From positions 1 through 64,000 of the forward strand of contig JAJEEM010000016.1 of assembly GCA_022820995.1 (NCBI GenBank): a DNA stretch of 64,000 nucleotides, in the 5' to 3' direction. The first letter of the stretch is position 1. The number at the start of each line of letters is the position of its first letter. The notes under the pieces are model-generated. The model was not told where the DNA came from. It did no database searches and saw only the letters and a program-made list of their open reading frames with translations. This DNA comes from Gemmatimonadota bacterium (GTDB lineage: Bacteria; Gemmatimonadota; Gemmatimonadetes; Palauibacterales; Palauibacteraceae). Shown piece after piece: positions 3,270 through 30,001 of the stretch. A program made the position numbers and the translations under genes.

Positions 3270-4798
3270 TGGAGGCCTGGGTCGTCGCGACCGGCCTCAT
3301 CTTCGTCTATCTCATCGCCACCATCGTGCTGGGGGCGGTCGCGAACCGGCGCATGTCGGTGGACCTGGAGGACTTCCTCCTCTACGGACGCAAGGCCGGG
3401 TTCATCGTCCTCTATCTCACCGTCGTCGCCACCTACCATTCGGCGTTCGCCTTCCTCGGTTCGGGCGGTTTCTTCTACACGCACGGAATCGGGTTCTGGG
3501 CGGCGGGCGCGTGGACGGTGCTCGTCGGGGGGATCACCTACGTGCTCGGGAGCCGGATCTGGGCGCTGGGGAAAACCTTCGGCTACATCACGCCGGCCGA
3601 CCTGCTGGCGGACTTCTACGAGTCGGATGCGGTGCGCATCGTGACCGCCCTCGTGTCGGTCCTGTTCACGATCCTCTACATCCAGGTCCAGGCGGTGGGC
3701 CTCGGCTACATCCTCTCCGTCGCGTCCGGCGACCGGATCTCGTTCGAACTGGGTACGCTGATCCTGCTCGTGGTCGCCGCGGGCTATCTCATCGCCGGAG
3801 GTCTGCGCGCCGTCTACTGGACGGACGTGATCCAGGGCGTGTGGATGTACGTCGCCGTGTGGGCCGGCGCGCTCGTGCTCGCCTTCGAGCTGTTCGGCGG
3901 GCCGTTCGAGCTGTGGCGGCAAGTCGCGGCGCAGCGGCCCGATCTGCTGTCGCTCCCGGGGCCGGAGGGTTTCTTCACGCCGGGGATGTGGTTCGGGATG
4001 ATCGTCGTGCTCTCCTTCGGCATCATCTTCCAGCCGCACCTCCTGATCCGGTACTACACGGCGGTCTCGGGCCGCACGATCAAGCTGCTGGGCGCGACGA
4101 CGCCGATCTATCTCATGACGCTCTACATCCCGGCGGCGCTCGTGGGTCTGGGGGGCGCGCTCGTGATGCCCGACATCGCGATCCCGGACCGGATCTTCCC
4201 GGAGATGCTCTTCGCGTACGCCCCGGCCTGGCTCACGGGCGCGATCCTGGCCGGCGCGACGGCGGCGGCGATGTCCACGCTCGACTCGATGCTGCACGCG
4301 AACATGACGGTGCTGACGCGCGATGTGTACCAGCGCTACATGCGCACCGGTGCGAGCCAGAACCACTACATCCTCATCGGCCGGCTGATCGTCGTGGCCC
4401 TCCTCGCCGTCGGGTACGTCCTCTCCGTGAGCACGTTCGACTTCCTCGTGCAGCTCGTGGCCCTGTCGGGTTCGGGGGCGCTGCAGCTGATGCCGGCGGT
4501 CCTCGGAGTCTGCTTCCCGGGCCGGCGCCTGACGACGAAGGCGGGGGTGATCGCGGGCATCGGAGCGGGTCTCGCGACGCTCTGCTTCACGCTCATCGAC
4601 GTGAGTATCTCCACGCCCTTCGGCACCTTCGCGACCGCACCGCATCCGCTCGGCATGCACGGCGGGGTGTGGGGACTGCTGGTGAACTTCATCGTGACCT
4701 GGACCGTGAGCCGGTTCACCCTTCCGCCGAGCGACGTGACCGTGTCGCGGATCCACGGCGCCGTCGAACGCTTCGTGTACGAAGGCGACCCCGCGTGA
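3269..4798 (+). CDS. Sodium:solute symporter (SSS family)
   Basis: A 509-residue polytopic membrane protein of the SSS family (PutP/PanF/sialate type) with about 13 hydrophobic segments. Visible family features are the LEDFLLYGRK motif after helix 1, VVATYHSAFAFLGSGGFFYTHG in the substrate-site region, and the ATAAAMSTLDSML helix, a conserved signature near the sodium site. The start at ATG 3269 gives the usual family N-terminus and overlaps the stop of the DUF3311 gene. A longer open frame upstream is rejected because it would read through that partner gene. The substrate is unknown, probably an organic acid or amino acid. Confidence 0.9.
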   Translation: MEAWVVATGLIFVYLIATIVLGAVANRRMSVDLEDFLLYGRKAGFIVLYLTVVATYHSAFAFLGSGGFFYTHGIGFWAAGAWTVLVGGITYVLGSRIWALGKTFGYITPADLLADFYESDAVRIVTALVSVLFTILYIQVQAVGLGYILSVASGDRISFELGTLILLVVAAGYLIAGGLRAVYWTDVIQGVWMYVAVWAGALVLAFELFGGPFELWRQVAAQRPDLLSLPGPEGFFTPGMWFGMIVVLSFGIIFQPHLLIRYYTAVSGRTIKLLGATTPIYLMTLYIPAALVGLGGALVMPDIAIPDRIFPEMLFAYAPAWLTGAILAGATAAAMSTLDSMLHANMTVLTRDVYQRYMRTGASQNHYILIGRLIVVALLAVGYVLSVSTFDFLVQLVALSGSGALQLMPAVLGVCFPGRRLTTKAGVIAGIGAGLATLCFTLIDVSISTPFGTFATAPHPLGMHGGVWGLLVNFIVTWTVSRFTLPPSDVTVSRIHGAVERFVYEGDPA

Positions 4799-23066: not shown

Positions 23067-24482
23067 ATGCCCCGGAACGAGACGATCACCGAACTTGGAC
23101 TCGACGAATACAAGTACGGATTTGTCACGGAGGACCAGCCCGTCTTCAAGGCCGTCCCCGGCCTGTCGGAGGACATCGTCCGACAGATCTCGCACCACAA
23201 GGAAGAGCCGGACTGGATGCTCGAGTTCCGACTCAAGGCGCTCGAAGTCTACTACTCCAAGCCGATGCCGAAATGGGGCGGCGACCTCTCGAAGCTCGAG
23301 GACACGCTCGACGAGATCTATTTTTACCTGAAGCCGCAGGACCAGATGGAGCGGTCCTGGGACGACGTCCCGCAGGAGATCAAGGACACGTTCGAGAAGC
23401 TCGGGATCCCCGAGGCGGAGCGTAAGGCGCTCGCCGGGGTCGGGGCCCAGTACGAGTCCGAGATGGTCTACCACTCCCTGAAGGAGCAGTGGGAGGAGCA
23501 GGGCGTGATCTTCGAGTCGATCGAGGACGGGCTCGCGAAGCACCCCGAGCTGTTCCGGCAGTACTTCTCCACCGTCGTTCCCACGCACGACAACAAGTTC
23601 GCGGCGCTCAACTCGGCCGTATGGTCGGGCGGGTCGTTCGTCTACATCCCGAAGGGGGTGAAGGTGGAGATCCCGCTCCAGGCCTACTTCCGGGTCAACG
23701 CGGAGCGCATGGGCCAGTTCGAGCGCACCCTCATCATCTGCGAAGAGGGGGCCGAAGCCCACTACATCGAGGGCTGCACGGCGCCGGTCTACTCGACGGA
23801 CTCCTTCCACTCCGGCGTCATCGAGATCGTGGTCAAGAAGGGCGCGCGCTTCCGCTACACGACGATCCAGAACTGGTCGAACAACATGTACAACCTCGTC
23901 ACGCAGCGGGCGCTCGTGCACGAGGAGGCGAAGATGGAGTGGCTCGACGGGAACCTGGGCTCGAAACTCACGATGAAATATCCGTCGTGCTACCTGGTCG
24001 GAGAGCGGGCGCACGGCGAGATCCTCTCCATCGCGTACGCGGGGGACGGCCAGCACCAGGACACGGGCGGCAAGGTGATCCACGCCGCCCCCAACACGAC
24101 ATCGCAGATCACCTCGAAGTCGATCTCGAAGGGGCTCGGACGCTCTTCGTACCGCGGACTGTGCAAAGTCTATGACGGCGCCGAGGGCGCGAAGTCCAAC
24201 GTCGAGTGCGACGCCCTGCTGCTCGACGAGACGTCGCGGACGGACACCTACCCCTACATCGAGATCGACGAGAACACGGCGTCCATCGGGCACGAAGCCA
24301 CGGTCTCGAAGGTCGGCGACGAGCAGCTCTTCTACCTGATGAGTCGCGGGCTCGACGAGGCGGAGGCGATGGCGATGATCGTCCGCGGCTTCATCGAGCC
24401 GGTGGCGAAGGAGTTGCCACTCGAGTACGCGATCGAGCTGAACCGGCTGATCGAGCTGGAGATGGAGGGGTCGGTCGGATGA
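23067..24482 (+). CDS. sufB: Fe-S cluster assembly scaffold SufB
   Basis: A 471-residue protein matching SufB along its length: the early [30 protein letters not shown]-like segment ([17 protein letters not shown]), the right-handed helix core with EGCTAPVY (the conserved Cys used for sulfur acceptance) and the C-terminal [11 protein letters not shown]-like stretch ([23 protein letters not shown]). It forms the cluster with SufC and SufD. AAGGAAGGA precedes the ATG. It overlaps sufD by ATGA. Confidence 0.97.
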
Positions 24483-25810
24483 GCACGATGACAGCCGGGC
24501 CGGCGGAATCGACGCTGGCCGCGGCGGACTTCGATACGCTTGCCGGCGGGCTGACGGAGCCGGAAGCGATCGCGGAGGCGCGGACCGCCGCGTGGGAACG
24601 GTTCACCGCCCTCCCCTGGCCGACGAAGAAGTCGGAGGAATGGCGGTACACGGACCTCGCGAAGGTCGGCTTCGAGGCGCTCACCCCGGTGGTCCCGGCA
24701 CCCGCGACGGCGGAAGCGCTGCCAGCGGACGTGCGCGACGTGCTCGGACGCTCCGGGGAGCGCGCGGGCGTCGTCGTGCTGCGGGAGGGGCGGGTCGCGC
24801 ACCTCGAACTCGAAGCCGGGGTGGCGCGGAGCGGCGTGGTCCTGTGTTCGATCCGGGACGCGGCGGACCGGCACCCGGAGGTGCTGAGGCGGGCGCTGCT
24901 GGAGGCGCAGCCGGGCCCCGCCGAGGAGAAGCTCTGGGCGCTGCACCTCGCTCTCCTGGGCGGAGGCTACTTCCTCTACGTGCCGCGCGGCGTGGAGATG
25001 CCGGCGCCGATCCACGCGTTCCACATCGTCGAGCGGGCGGGGACGCTCTCCTCCGCACACTCGTTCGTGTACGGGGAGTCCGGCGCCCGGGCCGCGGTCA
25101 TCGATGAGTTTCTTTCCGGCGACCTCGATGCGGAGACGGTCTCGCTTCACGGGGCGACGATCACGGGGGAGGGGGGCGCGGGTATCGAGTACGTCGCGCT
25201 CCAGCGCTTCGGCCGCGGCGTGAAGCGGTTCTCGACGCAGCACGTCACCGCGGGACGCGACTCGCGCGTCGTGACCTTCAACGTCGCGCTCGGGGGCGAC
25301 CTTTCGCGGGCGGACATCACAAGCCGTCTCGACGGGCCCGGGAGCGACAGCGAGATGCTCGCACTCTGGTTCGGGGACTCCGACCAGCACTTCGACCACC
25401 ACACGCTGCAGCATCACGCGGCGCCGCACGCGCACAGCGACCTGCTGTTCAAGGGGGCGCTGACGGATGCGGGTTCGAGCGTCTTCCGCGGGCTGATCCG
25501 GGTCGACAAGGGGGCCCAGCTCACGGACGCCTATCAGACCAACCGCAACCTGCTCCTGAGCGAGGGCGCGCATGCCTCCGCGCTTCCCAACCTCGAGATC
25601 GAGGCCGACGACGTGCGCTGCTCGCACGGGGCGACGATCGGGCAGGTGGAGGACGGCCAACTCTTCTACCTGATGAGCCGCGGCCTCACCCGGCGCCAGG
25701 CCGAGCGCCTTCTCGTGTTCGGGTTCTTCGATGAGGTGCTGGGGCGCCTTCCGATGGAGGGGGTGCGGGCGCGCGTGCGCGAAGCGATCGAGGAGAAGAT
25801 CGGGCTATGA
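24479..25810 (+). CDS. sufD: Fe-S cluster assembly protein SufD
   Basis: A 443-residue SufB paralogue. The N-terminus has the [13 protein letters not shown] motif of SufD. The core beta-helix includes [25 protein letters not shown] and [19 protein letters not shown], and it ends in [23 protein letters not shown] with the essential histidine region. It is part of the SufBC2D scaffold and is needed for iron entry. ATG 24479 overlaps the sufB stop, so the two are translationally coupled. Confidence 0.95.
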
Positions 25811-26118
25811 GCCGGTTCGTCACGGTGGCGAGGGTCGATGATGTGCCCGAGAACGGCACGTGCGGCGTGATGGCCGAGGATCTGGCGATCGCCCTCATCC
25901 GGAGCGGGGGCGAGGTCTACGCCCTCGAGGACTGTTGCTCCCACGAGGAGTTCCCTCTCTCGGACGGCGAGGTCGAGGGGGGCGAGATCACCTGTCTCCT
26001 CCACGGGGCGCGCTTCGACCTCGCGACCGGCGCGCCGAGGGCGCTCCCGGCGGTCATGCCGGTCCGGCGCTTCGACGTGCGGATCGACGGGGACGACATT
26101 CAGGTCGATCTCGGCTGA
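25807..26118 (+). CDS. Rieske-type [2Fe-2S] ferredoxin
   Basis: A 103-residue soluble Rieske protein. The two cluster motifs are CSH (in DCCSHEEFPLSDG) and CLLH (in EITCLLHGARFDLATG), spaced as in dioxygenase-type Rieske ferredoxins. Its start overlaps the sufD stop (ATGA). Such a ferredoxin is a common member of suf operons in Actinobacteria and related groups, where it may give electrons for cluster assembly. That role is inferred. Confidence 0.92.
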   Translation: MSRFVTVARVDDVPENGTCGVMAEDLAIALIRSGGEVYALEDCCSHEEFPLSDGEVEGGEITCLLHGARFDLATGAPRALPAVMPVRRFDVRIDGDDIQVDLG

Positions 26119-26146
26119 GCGGGACCCAGCCGAGGACCGGGGCCCG

Positions 26147-27454
<1,308 letters not shown>

Positions 27455-27458
27455 ATCC

Positions 27459-27956
27459 ATGATCGAACCCCGTTCGACGACGCCCGGGCCGATCGACCGG
27501 GAGATCCCTTCGTCACTCAACCAGCTGTACCAGGAAGTCATCCTCGATCACTACCGGAAACCCCGGAACAAGGGGCAACTGGACGAAGCCACGCACGCGA
27601 TCACGATGAACAACCCCCTCTGCGGCGACGTGATCGAACTCATGTTGCGCGTGAAGGGGGGGAGCATCGCCGAGGCGCGCTTCCTGGGTCGCGGGTGCTC
27701 GATCAGCCAGGCGTCGGCCTCGATGCTCACCGGACGCGTGCTGGGGAAGTCGCTCGAGCAGGCGCTCGAACTCTCCGGGAAGTTCACGCACCTCCTGCAC
27801 GGGGACGGAGCGCTGCTGTCGGACGACGACCTCGGCGATCTGCGCACGCTGGCCGGAGTCTCGAAGTTTCCGGTCCGCATCAAGTGCGCGCTGCTGGCGT
27901 GGAACTGTCTCGAGGAGCTGGGCGACGGGACCGGCGCCGACGGCGGCTCCGGGTGA
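27459..27956 (+). CDS. sufU: SufU sulfur-transfer protein
   Basis: A 165-residue IscU-like protein with the three zinc/sulfur cysteines of SufU: NPLCGD, GRGCSISQASASM and VRIKCALLAW. The insertion between the second and third motifs (GKFTHLLHGDGALLSDDDL) is what separates SufU from IscU. It accepts sulfur from SufS and passes it to SufBCD. It is four bases after sufS. Confidence 0.95.
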   Translation: MIEPRSTTPGPIDREIPSSLNQLYQEVILDHYRKPRNKGQLDEATHAITMNNPLCGDVIELMLRVKGGSIAEARFLGRGCSISQASASMLTGRVLGKSLEQALELSGKFTHLLHGDGALLSDDDLGDLRTLAGVSKFPVRIKCALLAWNCLEELGDGTGADGGSG

Positions 27957-27990: not shown

Positions 27991-28944
27991 GTGAACTCCG
28001 GCGGCCCCTCCGCGACCGTTGGCCGCGTGCTGCGGATCGCGGGTGGGGTCTATCACGTCGACGATTCCGCGACGGTGATCCGGGCGTCGCTGCGCGGGCG
28101 CCTGAAGCGGACGGACTCCCGCATCGTTTCGGTCGGCGATCTCGTCGAACTGGAACGCGTCGGCGACGAGATGCGGATCGTCCGGCTTCGCGCGCGAAGC
28201 GGCGCGCTCTCCCGGCACGGCGTTTCGAAGCGTCGGGAGCAGGTCATCGTCGCGAACGTGGACCAGGTCGCCGTCGTGGTCTCGGTGACGGCGCCCGATC
28301 CCGACTTCCTCATGGTGGACCGACTGCTCGCGCTCGCGGCGCTGAGCGGCATCGACGCCTTCCTCGTCGTCAACAAGACGGACCTCGCGGAGCCTGTGCC
28401 GAACGCTGCGACTTCCGGCGCGGCGGCCGGGAAACCGGCACCCGGGGACGGCCTCGAACAGTACGCGGCGCTCGGCGTGGAGACGCTGCGGACGAGCGTC
28501 GAGTCGAGGGCGGGACTGGAGGCGTTTTCGGAACGCCTCGCGGGACGGATCACGGTGCTCAGCGGGCAGTCGGGCGTGGGAAAGTCGAGCCTGTTGAACG
28601 CGCTCGTGCCGGAACTCGACCTGCGTGTGGGCGAGATCAGCGAGCGGCGGGGTCGGGGGCGGCATACGACCGTGGCGTCGGCGCTCTATCGATATCCGGG
28701 GGGCGGCTACGTGGCGGACACGCCCGGCTTGCAGTACCTGGCGCTGTGGGAGCTGGATCCGGCGGAACTTTCGGGGGGCTTCGTCGAGATCGCCGCGATG
28801 AGCGACGCCTGCCGGTTCGCGGACTGCCGGCATCGAGTGGAGCCGGACTGCGCGGTTCGCGTGGCCGTGGAGGATGGGACGATCGGGCGAAGGCGGCTGG
28901 AGAGCTACCTGCGCCTCCTCGACGAAGCGGAGAAGGGTCGTTGA
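27991..28944 (+). CDS. rsgA: Ribosome small-subunit biogenesis GTPase RsgA
   Basis: A 317-residue circularly permuted GTPase: an OB-fold (GRVLRIAGGVYHV), then G4 NKTD, G1 GQSGVGKSS, G2 (RGRGRHTT), G3 DTPG, and a C-terminal zinc knuckle (CRFADCRHRVEPDC). It checks late 30S subunit assembly. A run of low-complexity residues (ATSGAAAGKPAPGDG) sits after the G4 loop. The start is GTG 27991. It is 34 bp after sufU and overlaps the nudix gene by TTGA. Confidence 0.94.
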   Translation: MNSGGPSATVGRVLRIAGGVYHVDDSATVIRASLRGRLKRTDSRIVSVGDLVELERVGDEMRIVRLRARSGALSRHGVSKRREQVIVANVDQVAVVVSVTAPDPDFLMVDRLLALAALSGIDAFLVVNKTDLAEPVPNAATSGAAAGKPAPGDGLEQYAALGVETLRTSVESRAGLEAFSERLAGRITVLSGQSGVGKSSLLNALVPELDLRVGEISERRGRGRHTTVASALYRYPGGGYVADTPGLQYLALWELDPAELSGGFVEIAAMSDACRFADCRHRVEPDCAVRVAVEDGTIGRRRLESYLRLLDEAEKGR

Positions 28945-29537
28945 GCGAGGGTTGGAGCGCGGCACGGGTCGCTCATCGGCTGGTCACGGCGGGTCACGCC
29001 GAGGTCGACCCCGGGGCGGCGGAGCGCCACGCGGCCGTGACCCTCGTGGTCCGTCCTCGGAGTCACGACCTGGAGGTGCTCTTCGTCCGGCGGGCGGAGC
29101 TCCCCGGCGACCCGTGGTCCGGCCATATGGCGCTTCCCGGCGGACACCGGGACGCGGCGGACGCGGATCTCCTGGAGACGGCGCGCCGCGAGTTGCGCGA
29201 GGAAGTGGGGCTGGATCTTCCGCGCAACGGGTTCCTCGGACGGCTCGACGACCTGCACCCGGTGACGCGCCGGATCCCGTCGATCCTCATCTCCCCCTTC
29301 GTCGCGTGGCACGGGGAGGGCGCGCGGGTCTCGACGAACGCCGAAGTGCAGTATCATGTGTGGGCTCCGCTCCGCGCGCTGCGCGACCCGGCACTGCGCT
29401 CGGAAGTCCGCTATCCCGATGGTGGCCACGAACATGTGTGGCCCTCCATCTTGTACGAGGGCGACGCCATTTGGGGGCTCACGCACCGCGTCGTCATGAA
29501 CTTCCTAGACATCATCACGGAGAGAACCGGCCAATGA
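28941..29537 (+). CDS. Nudix hydrolase, CoA-pyrophosphatase-like
   Basis: A 198-residue nudix enzyme. The nudix box runs from GGHRDAADADLLETA to RRELREEVGL. The D-A-D-L-L-x-T-A-x-R-E form, with MALPGG before it, is that of the YeaB/NUDT7-type CoA diphosphatases rather than of MutT. The later PSILISPFVAW segment also fits that group. The start is TTG 28941 overlapping the rsgA stop, with GAGAAGGG upstream. Its own stop overlaps the osmC start (ATGA). Confidence 0.88.
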   Translation: MSEGWSAARVAHRLVTAGHAEVDPGAAERHAAVTLVVRPRSHDLEVLFVRRAELPGDPWSGHMALPGGHRDAADADLLETARRELREEVGLDLPRNGFLGRLDDLHPVTRRIPSILISPFVAWHGEGARVSTNAEVQYHVWAPLRALRDPALRSEVRYPDGGHEHVWPSILYEGDAIWGLTHRVVMNFLDIITERTGQ

Positions 29538-30001
29538 GTGAAGTCGTCTATCGCTCGCACGTGAAGATCGTGCGACAGAAGGGTCCATACCGCACGGCGG
29601 AGATCCCGGCCACGGATGCGCCGGTCGATTTCGGCGTCCACTCCGCGGTCGCCGAGTACTACGGAGTTCGGGACAACCGCGACATCGCGACGACCCTCGA
29701 CTATGTCATCGCCGCGACCGGCGGCTGACTGGCCGGAACCTTCGGGGGCGCGCTGGAAGCGCGCGGCGTCAAGGCGGATGAAGGACGGTTGGTGGCGAAC
29801 GTGGAAGGCGAGGTCGAGACGGACGACGGCGTGCTCGTGATCCGGCGGATCCGGGCCCGATACCGTCTGCAGGCGGATGAGGCGCACGCCGATGCGATCC
29901 GGCGCGCGTTCGAGGCCCATCCGCCGAAGTGTCCGGTCTACCGAACGCTTTCCGGCTGCATCGACATCACGACGGAACTCGACATCGTACCGGTCGACTA
30001 G
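29534..30001 (+). CDS. OsmC/Ohr-family peroxidase with predicted selenocysteine (UGA-decoded)
   Basis: A 155-residue OsmC-family protein read through an in-frame TGA at 29726-29728 (residue 65). Both halves are in the same frame. The part before ends TTLDYVIAATGG and the part after begins LAGTFGGALEARGV, so the TGA replaces exactly the peroxidatic cysteine of OsmC/Ohr proteins (the usual GGC-xxGT context). A second conserved Cys133 in PPKCPVYRTL is the resolving-cysteine position, 68 residues on. A SECIS-like hairpin follows. The enzyme would reduce organic hydroperoxides. It is the last gene of the suf operon and starts by overlap with the nudix gene. The alternative is a plain TGC-to-TGA nonsense mutation. 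Confidence 0.83.
29748..29764 (+). promoter_or_regulatory. Bacterial SECIS-like hairpin of the OsmC gene
   Basis: GCGCGC (29748-29753), loop TGGAA, GCGCGC (29759-29764). The loop starts 25 bases after the in-frame TGA and has G in its first positions, both within the known limits for SelB-dependent SECIS elements. Confidence 0.65.

Follow-up and report, generated by a model that had tools for sequence, protein, structure and literature searches.

The window analysed here, a 64,000-nucleotide stretch of contig JAJEEM010000016.1 (positions 1 to 64,000, forward strand) from the assembly GCA_022820995.1 of an uncultured Gemmatimonadota bacterium, carries an OsmC-like gene that very probably encodes a real selenoprotein, with novelty at the level of a subfamily within the known OsmC-like selenoproteins. 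Comparative analysis further makes it likely that this gene belongs to a separate, ancient OsmC-like subfamily found in Gemmatimonadota, Calditrichota, and Actinomycetota, often as two diverged paralogues, in which selenocysteine (Sec) is ancestral and near-obligate, cysteine forms were derived once, in genomes mostly without selA, and the stem of the Sec insertion sequence (SECIS) has constrained the encoded protein. The main features, all on the forward strand, are as follows.

29534..30001, forward strand: OsmC-like selenoprotein gene, 155 amino acids with Sec65 (Pfam match, read-through translation, and AlphaFold2 model with a mean predicted local distance difference test score, pLDDT, of 94.6)
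29726..29728, forward strand: in-frame TGA, predicted selenocysteine U65, at the catalytic-Cys position (alignments)
29748..29764, forward strand: predicted bacterial SECIS hairpin with a stem of 6 bp and UGGAA as its loop (comparative evidence and published model)
29930..29932, forward strand: codon of Cys133, the presumed resolving cysteine, in a CP motif (aligns with the second OsmC Cys)

A conserved in-frame TGA at the catalytic position of an OsmC-fold gene

Translated with the TGA read as Sec (U), the gene gives a protein of 155 residues that includes U65 and C133 and ends at a TAG (29999-30001). This protein matches the Pfam OsmC family (PF02566) over residues 55-148 (E 5.9e-12, 46.3 bits for a gathering score of 27.5), and the half that follows the TGA matches the same family by itself (E 1.3e-7). 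U65 and C133 align with the two cysteines of OsmC proteins, and in the AlphaFold2 model, for which Foldseek returned OsmC-fold structures, residue 65 is borne by the central helix, which spans residues 54-76 (mean pLDDT 94.6). A preliminary description of the window, made from its letters only, had placed a single TGA at 29726-29728, interrupting one OsmC-fold gene at the catalytic-Cys position, and had noted an intact Cys133. The position check and the alignment confirm the former, and C133 (codon 29930..29932) was found in all 137 distinct TGA copies examined, 135 by pattern and 2, reading CPA, by eye.

The TGA is conserved well beyond the window. It occupies column 65 in 103/103 aligned copies retrieved by tblastn, which represent 86 distinct proteins and include some genes fetched twice. 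Across 100 relatives, each match at E 3.4e-19 or better contains exactly one TGA, while seven weaker or partial matches contain none. Within Gemmatimonadota, 125 of the 395 sampled genomes match the family profile (E <= 1e-6), at least seven of them through an ordinary OsmC only, and one TGA was present at every place among the matches listed (down to E 5.2e-58). Re-examination of 16 genomes recovered the TGA in strong matches. One match is truncated by a contig edge shortly ahead of column 65, and a further seven, all weak (E 9.4e-11 to 6.2e-7), are stop-free ordinary OsmC genes. The expectation in the preliminary description that such a protein would be rarely described in a cultivated lineage needs correcting in that the protein is not rare, given this prevalence in the phylum and OsmC-like selenoproteins that, by the available text of PMC1088965, have been in print since 2005.

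Subfamily genes also occur in 2 of 40 genomes from the phylum of the Calditrichota record, both with TGA, and 47 of 396 genomes match at E <= 1e-8 in the phylum of G404, termed Actinomycetota here from the NCBI placing of record L051, whose isolate name contains 'Acidobacteriota'. In an enlarged set of 190 rows, codon 65 is TGA in 180, TGC in 7, TGT in 1, and GAC in 1, with one row lacking it; with Cys relatives at the same column, this upholds the proposed Sec at the catalytic position. The genome of the window encodes a second Sec paralogue at 34% identity (L084, G000:C40:45903-46349). This paralogue has a hairpin of its own (GCGCAC/GTGCGC), and two copies are found in many relatives as well.

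A predicted SECIS hairpin overlapping the coding sequence

Beginning 20 nt after the TGA, a stem of GCGCGC (29748-29753) and GCGCGC (29759-29764) has TGGAA (29754-29758) as its loop, with 25 nt from UGA to loop and a G as the second loop base. The bacterial SECIS model, as given in the available text of a 2026 review (PMC13188914), comprises a 4-16 bp stem, a 3-9 nt loop, a G among the first two loop positions, a spacing of 16-37 nt, and an energy limit; leaving the energy limit aside, the window hairpin fits the other four rules. The hairpin proposed in the preliminary description is confirmed in its position, and its reading as a SECIS is supported. An Rfam search of 29690-29830 gave no match up to E 5, and the support for the predicted hairpin is comparative.

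For this comparison, we dropped sequences that had fewer than 140 aligned residues, ran into a contig end, or duplicated another, reducing 190 rows to 143 distinct ones, and then to 108 after removal of near-copies (>88% DNA identity); two of the seven Cys copies were lost at this step and restored in the later count. All six pairs are kept in 88 of the 102 non-redundant TGA genes, compared to a mean of 4.5 when codons are redrawn synonymously (at most 12 in any of 2000 trials), while the full stem occurs in 0/7 Cys genes. Similarly, the loop GG is present in 93/102 TGA genes vs. 0/7 Cys genes.

The stem lies over codons 72-77, and two of its pairs vary on both sides. Across 64 distinct 24-mers, 91.1% of cells are paired (68.2% at best when the register is slid), 13 cells are changed on both sides vs. 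2.2 when shuffled, and the covariation score reaches 0.204 vs. 0.150, the latter two values not being equalled in any of 500 shuffles (0/500 each). Residues 73/76 are Ala-Ala, Val-Ala, or Ala-Val in 99/102 genes, never Val-Val, and otherwise Val-Glu (1) or Ala-Ser (2). At codons 73-76, Val-Ala is written GTG-GCA (12/12), Ala-Val GCA-GTG (21/21), and Ala-Ala mostly GCG-GCG (56/66); elsewhere in the 102 TGA genes, GCA accounts for 104 of 1513 Ala codons. This pattern shows that the predicted overlapping SECIS stem ties amino-acid choice to codon choice in the gene.

Selenocysteine machinery and a probable switch to cysteine

The preliminary description had named selA, selB, selC, and selD as genes that a selenoprotein-encoding genome should have, and all are found in the genome of the window: selA (492 bits), selB (367.7 bits), selD (371.6 bits, with one in-frame TGA), and a tRNA-Sec (selC; 79.7 bits, anticodon TCA according to ARAGORN), which shares a contig with selB at a distance of ~5 kb. 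In other genomes the machinery search covered selA, for 80 of the 100 relatives (the 20 left out are all TGA carriers) and 65 listed genomes, of which G005 and G033 were repeats. One selA match, at G024:C332:3100-4233, itself holds an in-frame TGA, which may be an error, decay, or worth a closer look.

All seven Cys forms of the subfamily (TGC or TGT; G457, G521 with two, G532, G586 with two, and G772) come from the phylum of L051, the remaining TGC row (L160) being a distant ordinary OsmC. In this phylum, selA was detected in 37 of 41 TGA carriers vs. 1 of 5 genomes with only Cys or Asp copies (p 0.002), namely G772, and was not found in G457, G521, G532, and G586; the carriers take in G680, which has a split copy, and G779, where only the gene end is present, was counted on neither side. 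Among the 80 relatives, selA was likewise found in 33/35 carriers vs. 30/45 non-carriers (p 0.003).

In a tree of 91 rows, built with a quick method and rooted on ordinary Cys-type OsmC across a long branch, all seven Cys forms and one Asp form make up a single clade among Sec forms (Shimodaira-Hasegawa-like approximate likelihood ratio test 98), with forks around this clade supported at 81-94 and a deeper fork at 99. Because the Cys/Asp clade sits among Sec forms with a single Sec/Cys change, Sec appears to be the older state. Most simply, Sec would thus be ancestral in the subfamily, and Cys forms would have arisen once, in genomes mostly without detectable selA. By eye, five of these Cys forms have Pro in place of H36; all seven lie outside the 45-row alignment described below. 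The Asp form (L209, G772:C43:5578-6015) has lost C133 in addition to Sec and may be a degenerate, redox-dead copy.

Relation to known OsmC-like proteins

OsmC-like selenoproteins have been reported before. In their available text, an analysis of Sargasso Sea data lists one under COG1765 with a 'UxxT' motif and 3 Sec and 10 Cys sequences (PMC1088965), a Global Ocean Sampling survey includes it as a table row with counts of 5, 3, and 161 (PMC2398784), and two reviews list such proteins (PMC9312934, PMC13188914). As far as these descriptions go, the marine protein and the window subfamily have in common the OsmC family, a predicted Sec, and a SECIS with a G in its apical loop. Judged by published description only, they differ in that Cys homologues outnumber Sec ones in the Sargasso Sea (10 vs. 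3), whereas Sec is near-universal in the window subfamily. The marine motif is printed as UxxT, compared to U-x-x-G-T here, which makes no safe divider, and we dropped 'UxxT' for this purpose since a YhfA-like Sec group (see below) also reads U-x-x-x-T.

The subfamily is set apart here by its NCBIfam score only. Against NF041052 (OsmC_like_Se, cut-off 95), the window protein reaches 13.5 bits, compared to 21.4 bits for its paralogue, and because of this gap the subfamily is, by profile score, distinct from NCBIfam's OsmC selenoprotein model. Homology to that model is nonetheless detectable, with 40/45 subfamily members matching at E <= 0.1. Of 390 genomes from the phylum, one has a match above the cut-off, and this match contains no in-frame stop. 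Among known structures, the highest Z scores were obtained with Ta0195 (2onf; 15.6) and 1ml8 (14.2), at 12 and 16% identity, respectively, the latter structure being presumably YhfA. The window protein shares with Ohr/OsmC peroxidases (e.g., XfOhr and Thermus thermophilus OsmC, 1ukk) the fold and the positions of the peroxidatic and resolving cysteines (U65/C133), but has Sec for the former and Leu55/Asp56 at the spacing of the Ohr glutamate, and lies far below the OsmC family cut-off. In a limited library, no description of the subfamily was found in titles and abstract openings on OsmC or Gemmatimonad selenoproteins, and a term search of Gemmatimonadota papers returned no OsmC, its sole 'selen' match being an author name.

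Likely function and alternative readings

We have high confidence that Sec would be inserted at residue 65 through the SECIS/SelB route: SelB carrying Sec-tRNA-Sec would recognise the GG-loop hairpin just past the UGA, so placing Sec at the catalytic-cysteine position of OsmC proteins. The U65 selenol would then most likely attack an oxidised substrate, a hydroperoxide like those reduced by Ohr and OsmC, and form with Cys133 a selenenyl-sulfide that a cellular dithiol would reduce. By analogy, we lean towards such a Sec-based, thiol-regenerated peroxidase. Sequence supports the codon for Sec, its SECIS, the insertion machinery, and the position, whereas the redox pair, substrate, and reductant are inferred.

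Across 45 aligned rows, twenty positions never vary, including R20, H36, D56, U65, H129, C133, and P134. In the available text of the cited studies, the OsmC family comprises Ohr, OsmC, and YhfA, the first two called thiol peroxidases (PMC4069020), and the XfOhr triad is Cys61, Arg19, and Glu51, the last lying ten residues before Cys61, with Cys125 as the resolving residue (PMC5962072). In the window protein, D56 is matched in the alignment to the second Glu of PEEL, a motif of OsmC, and the alignment of the invariant R20 to the Ohr arginine is ambiguous. The labels 'Ohr-type' and 'peroxidase' of the preliminary description go beyond the evidence: the score against TIGR03562 (OsmC) is 20.6 bits for a cut-off of 85.8, TIGR03561 (Ohr) gave no match at E 0.1, and a leucine occupies the Ohr catalytic-Glu spacing.

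The main rival to a peroxidase, which we rate as possible rather than probable, is a Sec-containing OsmC-fold protein that is not a hydroperoxide reductase, i.e., a YhfA-like or other thiol/selenol oxidoreductase acting in disulfide or persulfide exchange. Against this, the invariant R20 and D56 could stand in for the Arg/Glu pair of Ohr, and the arrangement of the two redox residues matches Ohr/OsmC.

Several observations weigh against the peroxidase and selenoprotein interpretation. Leu55 sits at the Ohr catalytic-Glu spacing, next to the invariant Asp56, and Ohr-like chemistry is therefore uncertain. For the hairpin, 14 of the 102 TGA genes do not have the full six pairs in the window register (candidate alternative hairpins were found for these, with no comparison to chance), and two of five measures on the 24-mers, namely the number of pairs with changes in both arms (2) and that of further pair types (6), were not above shuffles. 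Single-strand folding energy at the window hairpin is also unremarkable (z = 0.06), and 48-nt folding energies vs. synonymous shuffles, calculated for 40 of the 102 TGA genes and 5 Cys genes, were weak everywhere (mean Z -0.43 in the interval 0-16 codons past the TGA and -0.54 in an unrelated interval). Finally, selA was not detected at E <= 1e-40 in 6 of 78 TGA carriers (G005, G033, G712, G723, G788, and G830), of which G005 and G033 are drafts 90% and 81% complete, and G772 has selA with only Cys and Asp copies.

Other readings of the TGA fare far worse. A conserved regulatory stop yielding a 64-residue product, with read-through as a minor event, is in keeping with the competition between Sec insertion and termination in bacteria, where recoding of 30-40% in vivo is given in the available text of PMC4513850. 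We consider it very improbable, as codons after the UGA are under purifying selection and C133 is retained in every one of the 137 copies checked. Comparing the window gene to L066, L060, and L062, the nonsynonymous rate (dN) is 0.008-0.063 and the synonymous rate (dS) 0.08-0.29 on both sides of the TGA; for the more distant L067 and L068, dN is 0.21-0.27 and dS 0.74-1.34 where computable (upstream of the TGA in L067 it was not). With dN well below dS and the sequence kept in TGA-bearing relatives, the frame after the TGA is unlike that of a decaying gene, as had been proposed.

The same data refute a pseudogene or sequencing error, i.e., a TGC or TGT mutated to or misread as TGA, to which we assign next to no probability: decayed copies occur in other genomes (three different stops in G743:C346, and the split G680), but all 103 copies have TGA at one column, dN/dS is low on both of its sides, and the hairpin is preserved. 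These decayed or split copies (G743:C346:3342-3799 and G680:C1:3821623-3821933), with several stops or a break, form a contrast to the intact TGA genes. Global reassignment of UGA in the lineage (e.g., to Trp, Gly, or Cys), for which no supporting evidence was found and which is about as implausible, is refuted by UGA as the terminal stop in 57/102 of the subfamily's TGA genes, with a tRNA-Sec(TCA), selA, and selB present.

Genomic neighbourhood and further candidates

Upstream of the selenoprotein gene, the window contains the following genes.

28944..29537, forward strand: NUDIX hydrolase gene, immediately upstream, with an uncertain start codon (Pfam NUDIX, E 1.6e-15; syntenic in the genus)
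27991..28944, forward strand: RsgA GTPase gene (syntenic in the genus)
23067..27956, forward strand: SUF Fe-S assembly genes sufB, sufD, Rieske protein, sufS, and sufU (Pfam matches; names from Pfam families and gene order)

The ATG of the OsmC-like gene and the TGA that ends the NUDIX gene overlap (ATGA, 29534-29537), which suggests coupled translation of the two. Placement at the end of an Fe-S (SUF) operon, as initially described, holds in the window and in loci of the genus, the only ones in which the SUF-RsgA-NUDIX synteny was seen. Clustering of neighbouring open reading frames in the wider set, with loci spanning ~1-3 kb each way, revealed no common partner, and an antisense cluster at 65 loci was regarded as a by-product of GC-rich codons. 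A role of the neighbouring sufS desulfurase in selenium supply is speculation.

The phylum also contains a YhfA-like OsmC group with TGA at the catalytic Cys in 13 (L228-L240) of 20 loci fetched, and Cys in the other 7. These Sec forms read LGAU followed by TSMT (once MSMT), all fall below the NF041052 cut-off, and show by eye a candidate GCGC-TGTAY-GCGC hairpin after the TGA; in G304, one of them (L228) directly adjoins a member of the main subfamily. Within the window, a scan for TGA read-through genes returned one candidate, at 4796, which we rejected as it reads as the ordinary end of a transporter-like gene followed by a new in-frame gene. At the thresholds used the scan did not flag 29726 and is thus insensitive, leaving room for other selenoproteins in the window.

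Implications

No NCBIfam model is matched at cut-off by the window protein, and therefore genes of this kind may well appear in many genomes as a pair of separately annotated fragments. Read from sequence comparisons, the subfamily documents SECIS covariation and an apparent Sec-to-Cys switch with unusual clarity. This switch goes with the absence of selA, none being detectable in 4/5 genomes that have only Cys or Asp copies, and of the hairpin, complete in 0/7 genes. It represents a natural experiment on the reasons for keeping Sec and the consequences of abandoning it.
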